Assembly (NCBI GenBank): GCA_030834835.1
Contig: JAUQXD010000863.1
Coordinates: forward strand, 1 to 5,689
Direction: 5' to 3'
Source of the DNA: Thermoflexales bacterium
Lineage (GTDB): Bacteria; Chloroflexota; Anaerolineae; Fen-1058
Length of the DNA stretch: 5,689 nucleotides
The notes beneath the pieces were generated by a model. It did no database searches, had not been told where the DNA came from, and worked only from the letters and a program-made list of their open reading frames with translations. Positions 1-4,174 of this stretch are shown here, one piece after another. Each line of letters opens with the position of its first letter. The stretch's first letter is position 1. Position numbers and translations under genes: made by a program.

Positions 1-1461
1 TGGCTGTTGCGCGATGTCTTGCGCGGCGAATGGGGGTTCGATGGCTTCATCACGTCCGATGGCTATGCCGTCACTCAACTGCACGCGCTGCATCACGTCG
101 CCGCCGACATCGCCGAAGCCGGGCGCAAGGCGTTACAGACCGGCATCGATTTTGAACTGGATAGCTGCTTCGGCACGCTGATTCAACAAGTGCGCGACGG
201 CGTGATCGCCGAGGCTGTGATCGATCAGGCGGTAGCGCGCGTGCTGCGCGCCAAATTCTTGCTGGGCCTGTTCGAGCAACCATACATCGATGTGGAACGC
301 GCCGAAGCCATCACGAATAGCGCCGAACATCAGGCGTTGGCCTTGAGGGCCGCGCACCAATCGATCGTGTTGTTGAAGAACGACGGACTGCTGCCGCTTG
401 ATCGAAATCAACTGCATTCCATCGCCGTGATCGGCCCCAACGCCGCGGATTTTCATCCCGGCGGCTACAGCACCGAATGCGCACACGGCCTCAGTGTGTT
501 GGAGGGCATCCGGCGCAAAGTCGGCGATCAGATCGAGGTGCGGTACGCCGAGGGCTGCCGCATCACCGAGGGCGTGCAGGGCTGGCAGCAATGGTGGGAC
601 AACGCCGTCATCGCGAGTGATCCGCGCGACGATGTCGCCCGCATCGCGCAGGCGGTTGAGGTCGCGCGAGCGGCAAACGTGGCGATCGTGGTCGTGGGCG
701 AGAACGAAGGCACCTGCCGCGAAGGCTGGAGCGAGAATCATCTGGGTGACCGCGAGAGCCTGAATTTGCCGGGACGTCAGGACGATCTGGTCAAGGCCAT
801 CGTCGCTACGGGCACGCCGACGATCGTGCTGTTGATCGGCGGGCGACCGTTGTCCATCAACTGGATTGCAGAGCACGCGCCCGCGATTCTGGAGGGCTGG
901 TATCTGGGGCAAGCCACCGGCCCGGCCGTGGCCGATGTGTTGTTCGGCGACGTGAACCCCGGCGGCAAATTGCCCATCACCTTTCCGCGCTCGGCAGGGC
1001 AGATTCCGGCCTATTACTATCACAAGCCGTCGGCGCGGCGCGGTTATCTGTTTGCGGACAGGTCGCCGTTGTTTGCCTTTGGGCACGGCCTCAGTTACAC
1101 GACGTTTGCATATGCTGATCTGCGCGTGACACCGATGCAGATTACGCGCGCTGAATCAGCCACCGTCAGCGTGCGGGTCACAAACACGGGCCAACGCGCG
1201 GGCGATGAAGTGGTGCAGCTGTACGCGCACGATCAACTCGCGTCGGTAACACGGCCCGTGAAGCAGTTGATCGATTTTCGCCGCATCACGCTCGAACCGG
1301 GCGAGACGCGCACCGTGGAGTTTATCGTCAAACCCGATCAGCTGTCGCTGCTGAACGAGCACATGCAGCGCGTGGTTGAGCCGGGACTGTTTGATCTCAT
1401 GATTGGGACGAGTTCGGAGCGAGTGGAGACGATGCAGCTGGAAGTGAAGGTTGAAGGCTGA
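1..1461 (+). CDS. Glycoside hydrolase family 3 beta-glycosidase (beta-glucosidase/xylosidase type), 5'-truncated
   Basis: The reading frame is open from base 1, so the gene begins upstream; the TTG at 7 is not the real start. It probably encodes a retaining beta-glucosidase or beta-xylosidase that removes terminal sugars from beta-linked glycosides. Counting codons from base 1, the fragment starts at the end of the TIM-barrel domain with GFDGFITSDGYAV; the Asp at codon 20 (58-60) fits the family's catalytic nucleophile. The GH3 C-terminal alpha/beta sandwich follows, with KNDGLLPL at 126-133 and a GENEGTCREGW segment; its Glu at codon 241 (721-723) is the likely acid/base, by alignment from memory. 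GHGLSYTTF at 361-369 leads into a fibronectin-III-like domain (about 380-480), a common end for BglX-type enzymes. The N-terminal barrel and any signal peptide lie outside the window, so localisation is unknown. The stop codon lies inside a heptamer repeat. Family assignment is firm; substrate is not. Confidence 0.93.
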   Translation, partial: WLLRDVLRGEWGFDGFITSDGYAVTQLHALHHVAADIAEAGRKALQTGIDFELDSCFGTLIQQVRDGVIAEAVIDQAVARVLRAKFLLGLFEQPYIDVERAEAITNSAEHQALALRAAHQSIVLLKNDGLLPLDRNQLHSIAVIGPNAADFHPGGYSTECAHGLSVLEGIRRKVGDQIEVRYAEGCRITEGVQGWQQWWDNAVIASDPRDDVARIAQAVEVARAANVAIVVVGENEGTCREGWSENHLGDRESLNLPGRQDDLVKAIVATGTPTIVLLIGGRPLSINWIAEHAPAILEGWYLGQATGPAVADVLFGDVNPGGKLPITFPRSAGQIPAYYYHKPSARRGYLFADRSPLFAFGHGLSYTTFAYADLRVTPMQITRAESATVSVRVTNTGQRAGDEVVQLYAHDQLASVTRPVKQLIDFRRITLEPGETRTVEFIVKPDQLSLLNEHMQRVVEPGLFDLMIGTSSERVETMQLEVKVEG

Positions 1462-1478
1462 AGGCGGAAGGATGAAGA
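1444..1478. repeat. Five-unit heptanucleotide tandem repeat (NNGAAGG) over the GH3 stop codon
   Basis: Five consecutive 7-bp units are visible: GTGAAGG, TTGAAGG, CTGAAGG, CGGAAGG and ATGAAGA. They share the core GAAGG, with the last unit diverged by one base in the core. The array spans the last codons and the TGA stop of the GH3 gene and runs into the short intergenic gap. Short heptamer arrays of this kind are known in cyanobacteria and, as I recall, in some Chloroflexota. It may have changed the last residues of the GH3 protein. No function can be assigned. Confidence 0.6.
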
Positions 1479-1501
1479 ACAGCCGGTGCTATGACTGGAA
1501 G

Positions 1502-1507
1502 AAGGAG
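1502..1507 (+). promoter_or_regulatory. Possible ribosome binding site of the GH5 gene
   Basis: AAGGAG lies 14 nt before the ATG at 1522. The spacing is longer than the usual 5-10 nt, so this is a weak or suboptimal site. No other purine-rich motif lies closer to this ATG, and the encoded protein matches its family from the first residues, which supports the start. No convincing -35/-10 promoter is visible in the 60-nt gap, so read-through from the GH3 gene is plausible. Confidence 0.45.
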
Positions 1508-1521
1508 TCCTGCTCTTAATC

Positions 1522-3393
1522 ATGATCCACACCCAAGGTCCCTGGTTTGTCGACGAACATGGCCGCGTCGTAGTGCTGCGCGGCGTGAACCTGTCGGGCA
1601 GCAGCAAAGTGCCGATCGGGCTGCCGACGCGCGTGCGCGAAGGCTTCTTCGATCATCGCCACGTCTCCTTCGTTGGGCGGCCGTTTCCGATCGAGGAAGC
1701 CGACGAGCACTTCGCGCGCCTGCGTGAATGGGGCCTGACCTTCGTGCGCTTCCTCGTCACATGGGAGGCGATCGAACACGCGGGGCCGGGCCAGTACGAT
1801 GCAGCGTATCTCGATTATCTTGTGCAGGTGATCGAGAAAGCGCGGCAGCACCACATCCGATTGTTCATCGACCCCCATCAGGATGTGTGGGGGCGGCTGT
1901 CGGGCGGCGACGGCGCGCCGGGCTGGACTTACGAGGCCGTCGGCTTCAATCCGCAGAACTTCACCGAGACCGGCGCGGCAATCGTACACTGTCTTCACGG
2001 TGAACCGCTGCCCCGCATGATCTGGCCGTCGAATTACAGCAAGCTGGCCGCCGCGACGATGTTCACGTTGTTCTTCGGCGGCAACGCTTTCGCACCGCAG
2101 ATCAAGATCGACGGCGAACCCGCGCAAGACTACTTGCAGCGCCATTACCTCGACGCGCTGAAGCAAGTGGCGCAGCGCGTGAAGGACTTGCCCAACGTCG
2201 TCGGCTTCGATTCGTTCAACGAGCCTTCGACGGGCTACATCGGCATGAAGGATCTGGCGCAGCCCATGAACATCCTGCGCACGGACGCCGCACCGACGCC
2301 GTTCGAGTCGATGCTGCTGGGTGCAGGCTTTTCACGCCCGATCGATGTGTACGAGATGACGCTGCTCGGCCCGCGCCAACGCGGCCAGCGGCTGATCAAT
2401 CCACAGGGCGTGAGTGCGTGGCAAGACAATTGCGAGTGCATTTGGAAACAACACGGCGTGTGGGAGGTGGCCGCCAACGGCACACCGCGCTTGCTCAAGC
2501 CCGATTACTTTTCTCGCCTCAACGGCCGCCCCGTCGATCCGACCGATGATTTCATCCGCCCGTTCATTCGCCGCTATGCACGCGAAATCCGCTCCGCCAT
2601 GCCGCACGCCGTGATCTTTGCGGAGAATGTGACGCTGGAGAATTCGTTGCGCTGGACGGCGGACGATGCGCCCAACGTCGCCAACGCCGCGCACTGGTAC
2701 GACGTGCTGACGTTGTACTTCAAAGATCACATCTCATTCTTCAGCATCGATCCAATCACGCGGCGGCTCGCGTTAGGCGCGCAGCGCGTGCGGCGCCTGT
2801 TTACGGAGCAGCTGCGCGACATCCGGCATTGGGGCATTCACGCCATGAATGAGTCCCCCACGGTTATCGGCGAGTTCGGCGTACCGTTTGACTTGAAAAA
2901 GAAGCACGCCTATCGCACCGGCGACTTTGGCCCGCAGACCCGCGCGCTCGATTCGTACCTGGATGCCATGGATGCTAACCTGCTGAACTGGACGCTGTGG
3001 AACTACACGCCGGACAACGACAATCGCTGGGGCGATCAGTGGAACGACGAGGACCTGTCGATCTTCAGCCGCGATCAGCAAACGAATCCGCAGGACATCA
3101 ATTCGGGCGGACGTGCACTGGTAGCCGTCGTGCGACCCTACGCGCGCGCGATCGCGGGTGAGCCGCTGCACATGAAGTTCGATCGGAAGTCGCACCACTT
3201 CGAGTTTGAGTTTCGCCATCACGCCGAAGTCACCTCGCCAACGGAAATCTTCGTGCCAAACTATCAATATCCGCAGGGCTATCACGTGGACGTGTCTGAC
3301 GGGGCGTATGATGCGGATCGGGCGGCGCAATTGCTCATCTATCGACACAGCCATGATCGAGCCGTGCATCATGTGCGAGTGACGCCGGTTTGA
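1522..3393 (+). CDS. GH5 family glycosidase, GH5_12-like (glucosylceramide/steryl-glucoside beta-glucosidase type)
   Basis: The complete 623-aa protein is a retaining glycoside hydrolase of clan GH-A. The N-terminus (GPWFVDEHGRVVVLRGVNLSG) has no signal peptide, so the enzyme is probably cytoplasmic. DPHQDVW at 117-123, followed by SGGDGAPGW (127-135), is a hallmark I associate with GH5_12 and endoglycoceramidase-like enzymes. FNEP places the acid/base at Glu234, and VIGEFGVPFD places the nucleophile at Glu451. HWYD (391-394) and LWNY (492-495) fit active-site strands. From about 545 a beta-sandwich domain of the Glyco_hydro_5_C type follows, with PTEIFVP at 573-579. The segments MIWPSNYSKLAAATMFTLFF and GVSAWQDNCECIWKQHGVW also match the fungal EGCrP/Sgl1 group, which cleaves glucose from glucosylceramide or ergosteryl glucoside inside the cell. 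The substrate here is inferred; other lipid or aryl glucosides are possible. The upstream GH3 enzyme suggests a glucoside-breakdown cluster. Confidence 0.9.
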   Translation: MIHTQGPWFVDEHGRVVVLRGVNLSGSSKVPIGLPTRVREGFFDHRHVSFVGRPFPIEEADEHFARLREWGLTFVRFLVTWEAIEHAGPGQYDAAYLDYLVQVIEKARQHHIRLFIDPHQDVWGRLSGGDGAPGWTYEAVGFNPQNFTETGAAIVHCLHGEPLPRMIWPSNYSKLAAATMFTLFFGGNAFAPQIKIDGEPAQDYLQRHYLDALKQVAQRVKDLPNVVGFDSFNEPSTGYIGMKDLAQPMNILRTDAAPTPFESMLLGAGFSRPIDVYEMTLLGPRQRGQRLINPQGVSAWQDNCECIWKQHGVWEVAANGTPRLLKPDYFSRLNGRPVDPTDDFIRPFIRRYAREIRSAMPHAVIFAENVTLENSLRWTADDAPNVANAAHWYDVLTLYFKDHISFFSIDPITRRLALGAQRVRRLFTEQLRDIRHWGIHAMNESPTVIGEFGVPFDLKKKHAYRTGDFGPQTRALDSYLDAMDANLLNWTLWNYTPDNDNRWGDQWNDEDLSIFSRDQQTNPQDINSGGRALVAVVRPYARAIAGEPLHMKFDRKSHHFEFEFRHHAEVTSPTEIFVPNYQYPQGYHVDVSDGAYDADRAAQLLIYRHSHDRAVHHVRVTPV

Positions 3394-3410: not shown

Positions 3411-3416
3411 AGGAGG
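3411..3416 (+). promoter_or_regulatory. Strong ribosome binding site of the MerB-family gene
   Basis: AGGAGG is a perfect Shine-Dalgarno core placed 5 nt before the ATG at 3422. It fixes the start of the MerB-family gene ahead of the later in-frame ATG at 3530. It also argues that the gene is actively translated rather than a decayed remnant. The site lies in the 27-nt gap after the GH5 stop, so the two genes may be cotranscribed. Confidence 0.8.
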
Positions 3417-3421
3417 TTGCC

Positions 3422-4174
3422 ATGCACAATGCTTTGTTGTTAGGCGTTGGTCGTCGTCTGATCCCGATCCCGGCGTTCATCTGGCAGCGACAGGTGAAGG
3501 CCAACACCGGCGAGAGTCCCACGGCCTTCATGACGCCCGATCATCATCGCGTGCATGATTTCGTGGTGACTGAACTGCCGATCGAGGGACAGCCGCTGCC
3601 GCCGGAGTTGATCGCCGCCCGCTTGAATCTGCCGCTCGATCGAACGATCGCCATCCTCGACGATCTGGAAAAGCGCCTGACTTTTCTGTTCCGCGATGAA
3701 GCGGGCGCGGTGGTCTGGGCCGATCCCGTGACGGCGGCGAAGACGCCGCATCGCTTCACGGCTAATACGGGCGACACCCTCTACGCGGCTTGAGCGATCG
3801 ACGCGATTGCGACGCCCTTCGTGCAAGGGCACTTACGGCCAGAGTTTACGTCGATCTCGATCACCACGGAATGCGCGCATTGCGGCCGGCCGCTGCACAT
3901 CGAACTTGATCGCGAGTTGAACTATGGGGTGGCCGAGGCCGAAGCGCGGCCGATCGTGGTCGCGCCGCAGGTCAACTTTGCCCGGCTGCGCGATCCCAGC
4001 ATCATCGACGCCTTCTGAAGAAAATCGATCTTCTTCTGGTCAGAAGAACACGCGCGAGAATACCGCAAACAACATGCTGAGGATCGCTGCACGTACCTGA
4101 CGCTGGATCAAGCCGTCTATGTGACGCGCATCGTGCAAAGCGCGATCTTTGCGTTTCCACGGTGTACAGAGTAG
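3422..4174 (+). CDS. merB: MerB-family organomercurial (alkylmercury) lyase-like selenoprotein with two in-frame UGA (Sec124, Sec199)
   Basis: Read through two TGA codons (3791-3793, 4016-4018), this frame gives one 250-aa protein ending at TAG 4172-4174. Residues 41-100 form a helix-turn-helix-like N-terminal domain (PELIAARLNLPLDRTIAILDDLEK) as in MerB. The lyase domain follows: DPVTAAKTPHRF (101-112), then YAA-U-AID, where U124 aligns with MerB Cys96 and Asp127 with Asp99. ECAHCGRPL holds Cys151 and Cys154. SIIDAF-U-RKSIFFWSEEH puts U199 at MerB Cys159 (SFCCHVHFF in R831b). LTLDQA lies near the C-terminus. MerB cleaves the carbon-mercury bond using two Cys and one Asp, releasing Hg(II) to MerA. 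Here both catalytic Cys codons are TGA, each followed by a SECIS-like hairpin, so two selenocysteines are inferred. A pseudogene is the main alternative, but no other frame defect exists and the Shine-Dalgarno site is perfect. The symbol is family-level; substrate is unproven, and no other mer genes are seen here. Confidence 0.88.
3791..3793 (+). other. In-frame UGA, predicted selenocysteine codon 1 (Sec124, MerB Cys96 position)
   Basis: This TGA interrupts the MerB-family frame between YAA and AIDAIATPF. In MerB the matching motif is YAWCALD, so the TGA replaces the codon of the first catalytic Cys, with the catalytic Asp kept three residues later. TGC or TGT to TGA is a single-base change, typical of Cys/Sec exchange in protein families. 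Homology continues in the same frame on both sides. Termination here would leave a 123-aa protein with no active site. Confidence 0.85.
3814..3830 (+). promoter_or_regulatory. Putative bacterial SECIS hairpin 1
   Basis: A perfect 6-bp stem, GCCCTT (3814-3819) with AAGGGC (3825-3830), closes a 5-nt loop CGTGC. The loop starts 26 nt after the first TGA, inside the 16-37 nt range described for bacterial SECIS apical loops, and has G followed by U at loop positions 2-3, the feature SelB reads in known elements. It lies within the coding sequence, as bacterial SECIS elements do. The stem covers codons for Pro-Phe and Gln-Gly, so part of the pairing may reflect the protein sequence. No lower stem or bulged U is obvious by eye. 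Confidence 0.6.
4016..4018 (+). other. In-frame UGA, predicted selenocysteine codon 2 (Sec199, MerB Cys159 position)
   Basis: This TGA lies between SIIDAF and RKSIFFWSEEH, 75 codons after the first. In the R831b enzyme the matching stretch has Phe-Cys159-Cys160 followed by HVHFF, so the TGA is at the second catalytic Cys. The 51 sense codons after it, up to the TAG at 4172-4174, read as a typical MerB C-terminus although they are too short to be found as a separate ORF. The same frame is kept on both sides. Confidence 0.85.
4031..4048 (+). promoter_or_regulatory. Putative bacterial SECIS hairpin 2 (GGUC apical loop)
   Basis: A perfect 7-bp stem, TTCTTCT (4031-4037) with AGAAGAA (4042-4048), closes the tetraloop GGTC. 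The loop starts 19 nt after the second TGA, nearly the spacing seen in E. coli fdhF, whose loop also carries GGUC. This is the stronger SECIS candidate of the two. A caution is that the stem is made of Phe-Phe (TTC) and Glu-Glu (GAA) codons of the conserved FFWSEE motif, which are naturally complementary, so the pairing is not independent of the protein. Confidence 0.68.

Follow-up and report, generated by a model that had tools for sequence, protein, structure and literature searches.

The window analysed here, an entire 5,689-base contig (JAUQXD010000863.1; G000:C435 in our numbering) from the 6.48 Mb draft genome of a Thermoflexales bacterium, carries on its forward strand a relative of the organomercury lyase gene merB whose frame contains two in-frame TGA codons (Table 1). 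A first-pass annotation, made from the letters alone, had described a single frame broken only by these codons and had proposed a double-selenocysteine enzyme; indeed, codons 124 and 199, which lie 75 codons apart in the contexts AA-UGA-A and F-UGA-R, are the only stops between the ATG and the TAG. The protein obtained by reading through both matches the Pfam MerB family PF03243 with 64.6 bits (cut-off 27) over residues 104–235; the 123-residue fragment 5′ of UGA124 has no Pfam match above cut-off. The read-through protein is confidently predicted to adopt the MerB fold, its structural model superposing on MerB over 203–204 residues at 16–20% identity (PDB 3f0o, 5c17), and Pfam score and fold together place it in the MerB superfamily. 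In a profile alignment to MerB chain 1s6l, with equivalences counted by hand from the printed chain coordinates, the UGAs fall on Cys96 and Cys159 and the catalytic Asp99 is retained, as the first-pass annotation had held.

Table 1 Features of the window and the evidence behind each
Feature	Position	Strand	Basis or remark
Double-UGA merB-like gene, 250 codons plus TAG (4172-4174), start ATG	3422-4174	+	Reading frame, Pfam
Ribosome-binding site AGGAGG	3411-3416	+	Upstream of the merB-like ATG
UGA codon 124, MerB Cys96 equivalent	3791-3793	+	Profile alignment; TGA in 80/81 genes, TGC in 1
GAC codon 127, catalytic Asp99 equivalent	3800-3802	+	Profile alignment; invariant in 81/81
First predicted SECIS-type hairpin, GCCCUU-CGUGC-AAGGGC	3814-3830	+	Comparison; loop 26 nt past UGA124
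TGC codon 151, structural Cys117 equivalent	3872-3874	+	Profile alignment; invariant in 81/81
UGA codon 199, MerB Cys159 equivalent	4016-4018	+	Profile alignment; TGA in 81/81 genes
Second predicted SECIS-type hairpin, UUCUUCU-GGUC-AGAAGAA	4031-4048	+	Comparison; loop 19 nt past UGA199
Upstream frame 1	Stop TGA 1459-1461	+	GH3 (glycoside hydrolase family 3) is the first-pass label only
Upstream frame 2, GH5 (glycoside hydrolase family 5)	Stop TGA 3391-3393	+	Pfam
Dimethyl sulfoxide (DMSO)-reductase-family molybdoenzyme, C-terminal part, cut off by the contig end	4205-5689, stop TGA 4207-4205	-	NCBIfam

Conservation of the two UGA codons and of the hairpins behind them

One scan of contigs from GTDB species, using a locus pattern ([YF]PVTxxxTPH) that takes in neither UGA site, yielded 87 relatives. 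Eighty of these were retained and, together with the window, make up the 81 genes of clade L. The search for homologues with TGC, TGT or TGA at codons 124 and 199, which the first-pass annotation had proposed, thereby returned TGA at both codons in 79 of the 80 loci and TGC plus TGA in one, L063. Elsewhere in the 81 frames TGA occurs only at codon 234 of L078, in a broken end, and at codon 248 as the terminator of 11 genes. Apart from L078, which is broken at codon 231, the frames (80/81) are otherwise clean from the first aligned codon to codon 245. Substitution rates at the three codon positions, computed with the hairpins described below excluded, were 0.40/0.30/0.63 before, 0.41/0.29/0.61 between and 0.42/0.37/0.65 after the UGAs, which shows protein-coding constraint to be equal in all three segments. 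By their record titles, the carriers belong to Chloroflexota, Deltaproteobacteria-type lineages, Acidobacteria and other metagenome-assembled genomes (MAGs), spanning many phyla. Two loci, L124 and L125, form another, long-branched UGA/UGA group within clade L.

A decayed pseudogene, or errors of sequencing or assembly, might be suspected in a single 5,689-base draft contig from an assembly of 1,452 contigs, and further breaks do exist in L078 and G481 (L126). Yet these were the only other breaks seen when the relatives were checked for scattered stops, and the identical two codons, with no others, recur in 79 of the 80 loci, the late break of L078 aside. Coding constraint continues unchanged past each UGA, and silent sites are frozen at the hairpins. 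Sequencing error is untenable when 79 other loci share the two TGAs, and random decay had been judged very unlikely from the window alone, since it would have had to hit just the two catalytic codons; we consider decay or error extremely improbable as an explanation. One candidate broken copy, G499, was dismissed, its additional TAA being the gene end and its frame open to position 247.

Shortly 3′ of each UGA, comparison of the relatives reveals a hairpin of the selenocysteine insertion sequence (SECIS) type with a predicted role in recoding; the usual distance from UGA to SECIS loop is 16–37 nt. The first hairpin is paired in 98.1% of 486 cells (9 unpaired), with both partners of a single pair altered in six sequences and a covariation score of 0.078 against 0.041 in shuffled data, a value that none of 500 shuffles reached. 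The second is paired in 99.6% of 567 cells, with double changes at three pairs (9 cells) and, again, a covariation matched by 0/500 shuffles. Silent sites are frozen in both: P132 CCC, F133 TTC, V134 GTG and G136 GGG in 81/81 genes at the first, and F204 TTC (81/81) and S207 TCA (75/81) at the second. The mean codon-identity excess amounts to 0.56 and 0.32 in the first and second hairpin, respectively, compared with 0.06 across 60 other conserved columns, the highest of which (column 164) reaches 0.50.

Along the gene, folding energy is lowest in the windows that start at codons 193–199 (median z −0.97 to −1.42). Free folding energy was nevertheless discarded as SECIS evidence, site 1 not being unique by this measure (z −0.76 at codon 121 and −0.21 at codon 124, against −0.88 at codon 4); since single-sequence folding is not significant, the SECIS claim rests on comparison. 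An Rfam scan of the window gave zero matches at gathering scores.

Three genes depart in detail from this pattern. In L063 (positions 1201–1203), where TGC replaces the first UGA, the full first hairpin is kept, as if selenocysteine had recently given way to cysteine. In L064 and L069 the second hairpin has a GUUC instead of a GGUC loop (Trp206 to Cys) on an intact stem.

A second double-UGA family and the residues at the two sites

The class of one host, searched across 155 genomes, contained 13 genomes with clade L and seven with a more divergent MerB relative (21.6–26.7 bits, two TGAs each; a weak match in G574 is not counted). These seven genes (L117–L123, 234–243 residues as read), here called clade S, have UGAs at the same two catalytic sites, and in all of them Glu replaces the Asp99 equivalent. 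Their second hairpin (UUCUUCC-GGUC-GGAAGAA) sits in the same place in 7/7 and agrees with the one in the window's family; behind the first UGA, the hairpin predicted by folding is of another kind, its loop being GGUCU. The other six genes are 83–88% identical to the first and therefore offer no covariation of their own. In a free tree, in which L063 is labelled as a double-UGA gene despite its TGC at codon 124 and the clade S database entries so labelled are Trp/Trp translations, clades L and S stand separate among cysteine-type MerBs. A single clade uniting the two was not rejected (approximately unbiased test, p 0.274), so that one or two origins of the double-selenocysteine form are both compatible with the data.

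We also inspected the residues that public proteins carry at the two sites. A profile search scored 7,996 proteins, 1,533 of them at E ≤ 1e-5 and 120 listed; the clade L set comprises 124 listed proteins (P0002–P0125, query excluded) and the clade S set 120. Among the listed clade L proteins, the first residue is absent in 60, and the others are Trp/Trp (47), Trp/nothing (3) and Cys/nothing (12), with no Cys/Cys, besides two exceptions given below. Among those of clade S, Cys/nothing (62) and Trp/Trp (53) prevail, followed by Cys/Cys (2) and Trp/nothing (1). Cysteine thus occupies site 1 in 12/124 and 64/120 listed proteins, respectively, and both sites in 2/120 of clade S. Together with the TGC of L063 and with Cys96 and Cys159 of MerB itself, these forms place UGA where homologues have cysteine, and Sec/Sec, Cys/Sec and Cys/Cys versions of one protein would be a classic mark of a selenoprotein.

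The Trp/Trp proteins, which come from several sources, might instead suggest that UGA is reassigned genome-wide to tryptophan or another residue and that the gene is nothing special. Our reading is that gene calling on metagenomes applied code 4 to them and rendered UGA as Trp. Of the listed proteins that show a residue other than Trp at site 1, 12 of 14 in clade L and 64 of 65 in clade S have Cys. UGA also terminates all three flanking frames of the window, as the first-pass annotation had pointed out, and ends 11 of the merB-like genes themselves, where it is hence both an inner sense codon and a stop. The conserved Trp99 is encoded by TGG in 81/81 genes, which speaks against UGA meaning Trp, and the hosts are spread over many phyla. 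On these grounds a global reassignment is exceedingly improbable.

Very improbable, too, is that the functional product would be the 123-residue N-terminal fragment, with UGA124 an ordinary or regulatory stop. Public annotation does hold many 125-residue proteins ending there (54/124 listed, all lacking a residue at site 1), but the 126 codons past UGA124 evolve as protein, most of the MerB Pfam domain lies downstream of it and those homologues that carry Cys at this site continue beyond it.

Selenocysteine machinery and genomic context

The conserved hairpins with their frozen silent sites and compensatory changes, the cysteine homologues and the presence of SelA, SelB and SelD bear out the double-selenocysteine (double-Sec) reading, and UGA124 and UGA199 are almost certainly read as Sec. 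SelA and SelB (522 and 322 bits, each at the end of a contig) as well as SelD (354 bits) exceed their cut-offs in the window's own genome, which speaks against the objection of missing machinery; of the four components that the first-pass annotation had asked for, only selC, the gene for tRNA-Sec, was not recovered. One RF01852 match (48.3 bits, cut-off 47) was rejected as tRNA-Sec, being tRNA-Ser(TGA) according to ARAGORN and a plain tRNA according to Rfam, and four weaker ones are other tRNAs; as the match did not survive, selC is not claimed. In the SelA survey, which covered 49 genomes of loci L012–L061 (L038 left out; L062–L091 outside its range), SelA was found in 47 and exceeded the cut-off in 45. 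SelA is common in the window's phylum (331/400 sampled Chloroflexota genomes), and its presence there is by itself weak evidence. Identical coordinates of HgcA hits indicate that this phylum sample has genomes in common with loci L021 and L041, in line with the assignment to Chloroflexota. The double-UGA gene occurs in four of these 400 genomes, all four with SelA, and 15 further ones have weaker MerB-like matches without an inner TGA.

Several observations weigh against this reading. tRNA-Sec was found neither in the window's genome (1,452 contigs, 91% complete; 150 of 848 candidates scored) nor in the stretches around selA, selB and selD, and SelA is missing from the genomes of L022 and L035 and below cut-off in two more. 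On the window sequence alone neither hairpin beats shuffles (z −0.97 and +0.61). Nor does the first appear in the minimum-energy fold; its count of double-changed pairs is not special either, 335 of 500 shuffles reaching one. At face value, the Trp/Trp entries of both clades point the same way, as do a few odd residues among the listed proteins: Gly/Leu in P0012 and Arg/nothing in P0025 of clade L, and one Ser/nothing and one Trp/Pro in clade S. P0012 is full length despite its Gly and Leu, and could be an error or a dead enzyme.

The source genome is a draft of 90.7% completeness and 7.0% contamination, and with so short a contig the binning of the window itself is not certain. Both upstream frames (window 1–3393) run in the direction of the merB-like gene and, with only 28 bases between the GH5 stop and the ATG, the three may be co-transcribed. 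The convergent molybdoenzyme fits dmsA_ynfE best among NCBIfam models (184 bits, under the model's cut-off). Across the 81 loci, with neighbours chosen by a crude longest-frame rule, the commonest adjacent gene encodes a MerR-type regulator (10/81; Pfam matches in 8/45 upstream and 2/31 downstream neighbours), followed by a MarR-type one (6/81). No other family occurs in more than four loci, and a function could not be derived from the neighbours. Regarding mobile origins, no relative was confirmed among IMG/VR phage contigs, and the listed plasmid matches are ordinary mercury-resistance lyases of <60% identity.

Predicted chemistry, known systems and meaning

Taken together, we consider the gene likely to encode a double-Sec organomercury lyase of the MerB family, with a probability of roughly 0.68. 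Given Sec at the UGAs, the reaction is probably C–Hg cleavage; the lyase activity and its substrate are predictions. In MerB, the cysteine pair takes R-Hg(+) and Asp99 protonates the carbon, and mercury is bound more tightly by selenolates than by thiolates. In the window protein, Sec would be incorporated at UGA124 and UGA199 by SelB and Sec-tRNA, with the hairpin behind each codon directing its recoding; by analogy with MerB, the selenolate pair would bind R-Hg(+), Asp127 would protonate the carbon as Asp99 does, R-H would be released, and Hg(II) would be left held between the selenolates. In cells without MerA it would then pass to cellular thiols or sulfide; this MerA-free release is the weak step of the scheme. 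Owing to the tighter binding of mercury by selenolates, the benefit of Sec would be that anoxic cells could trap methylmercury even at very low concentrations.

A double-Sec protein of MerB fold could also be something other than an organomercury lyase, its selenolates acting on a different organometal or metalloid (of tin, lead, arsenic or antimony) or doing no more than hold Hg(II). There is no mer operon, conserved mer neighbours are absent, and in the MerA and HgcA surveys of 50 host genomes (the window's included) MerA lacked a match over cut-off in 49, the one positive being another genome; this counts against lyase activity, as do NCBIfam scores far under cut-off (MerB NF033555, 52.1 of 200 bits; SaoL, 39.6 of 140) and the prevalence of Glu for the catalytic Asp in clade S (114/120 listed proteins). 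In G414, a frame close to hgcA that resembled MerA and held a single TGA proved to be a gene of flavoprotein disulfide-reductase type with the TGA as its terminal stop. On the other side, the clade L catalytic set of UGA-or-Cys, Asp and UGA plus the Cys117 equivalent is invariant, the structural model superposes on MerB across 203–204 residues, and HgcA, the methylating corrinoid protein, is over-represented among carriers, kinship and habitat being uncontrolled. HgcA exceeds its cut-off in 21 of the 50 host genomes, none of which has MerA over cut-off; the window's is not among them, and in G421 HgcA is in two pieces and below cut-off. Within the class of 155 genomes, HgcA occurs in 10/13 clade L carriers versus 65/142 others (Fisher p 0.042) and, with clade S added, in 15/20 versus 60/135 (p 0.015). 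In Chloroflexota the figures are 4/17 carriers versus 1/396 non-carriers (p 1e-5; different sampling frames), the 17 being 16 loci by record title plus the window, including an Aquidulcis locus that we take to be Chloroflexota and excluding G338, a carrier whose HgcA is not over cut-off. Neither kinship nor habitat is taken into account by these tests, and the HgcA link is accordingly a lead. On balance we judge a non-lyase role unlikely, though a serious contender.

A selenoprotein relative of MerB is already known; our literature searches brought up no description of a double one that carries Sec in both catalytic places. SaoL, the MerB-like lyase for organometals that belongs to the Sec-assisted organometallic (SAO) system, is the sole MerB relative among the 119 families in the selenoprotein table of PMC13188914 (Table 1 of this 2026 review); its single Sec lies in a CU motif. 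PMC9312934 lists a MerB-like selenoprotein under pfam03243, and both reviews credit one to the 2008 Global Ocean Sampling (GOS) paper; the name MerB is absent from the main texts of the GOS 2008, ISME J 2016 and deep-Sep papers. SaoL (NF040728) is likewise a MerB-related selenoprotein, but has a 159-position model and a single Sec, in contrast to UGAs at both catalytic cysteines here; besides the window protein, four other double-UGA proteins score 37.1–49.8 bits against it. No SAO gene stood out on the short contig of the window or among the Pfam matches tallied for 45 neighbours upstream and 31 downstream, to which the SAO models were not applied. Canonical MerB differs in having cysteine at both positions and a shorter N-terminus, and the window protein also stays below NF009710 (61 of 193 bits); despite this it may work like MerB, with Asp kept. 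In NCBIfam of June 2026 no model exceeded its cut-off for the window protein or the four relatives. MbdU, TsoB and the UxxU metal-binding protein (NF041115) resemble it in having two predicted Sec per protein, some of them metal-linked, but contain other domains, and no two-Sec row of the PMC13188914 table is MerB. HgcA and HgcB selenoproteins in the same table share predicted Sec in mercury chemistry, with the difference that HgcAB makes methylmercury and a MerB would break it. In keeping with the first-pass annotation, which knew of no such protein, no two-Sec MerB emerged from the available portions of the literature compared (PMC13188914, PMC12013277, PMC5029168, PMC9312934, PMC2398784, PMC10349881, PMC8261052), although Haft and Gwadz 2023 or Haft and Tolstoy 2025 may mention one.

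The available text of PMC8261052, a 2021 paper surveying 84,032 genomes, treats the fate of methylmercury in cells with MerB but no MerA as an open question, discusses MerA-independent Hg(II) routes, thiols and sulfide included, and reports no MerB-only genome with HgcAB. The 21 HgcA-positive hosts of a UGA-interrupted MerB, all without MerA over cut-off, stand in contrast to this. A survey built on called proteins would tend to register no more than the fragment 5′ of the first UGA. Tentatively, these genes might represent a large superfamily of double-Sec organomercury lyases, overlooked since gene calls end at that codon, that would serve as the anaerobic methylmercury demethylase of sediments, even inside hgcA-positive methylators lacking merA. 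The double-UGA pattern itself is no curiosity, recurring as it does in Chloroflexota, Deltaproteobacteria-type lineages, Acidobacteria and other MAGs.
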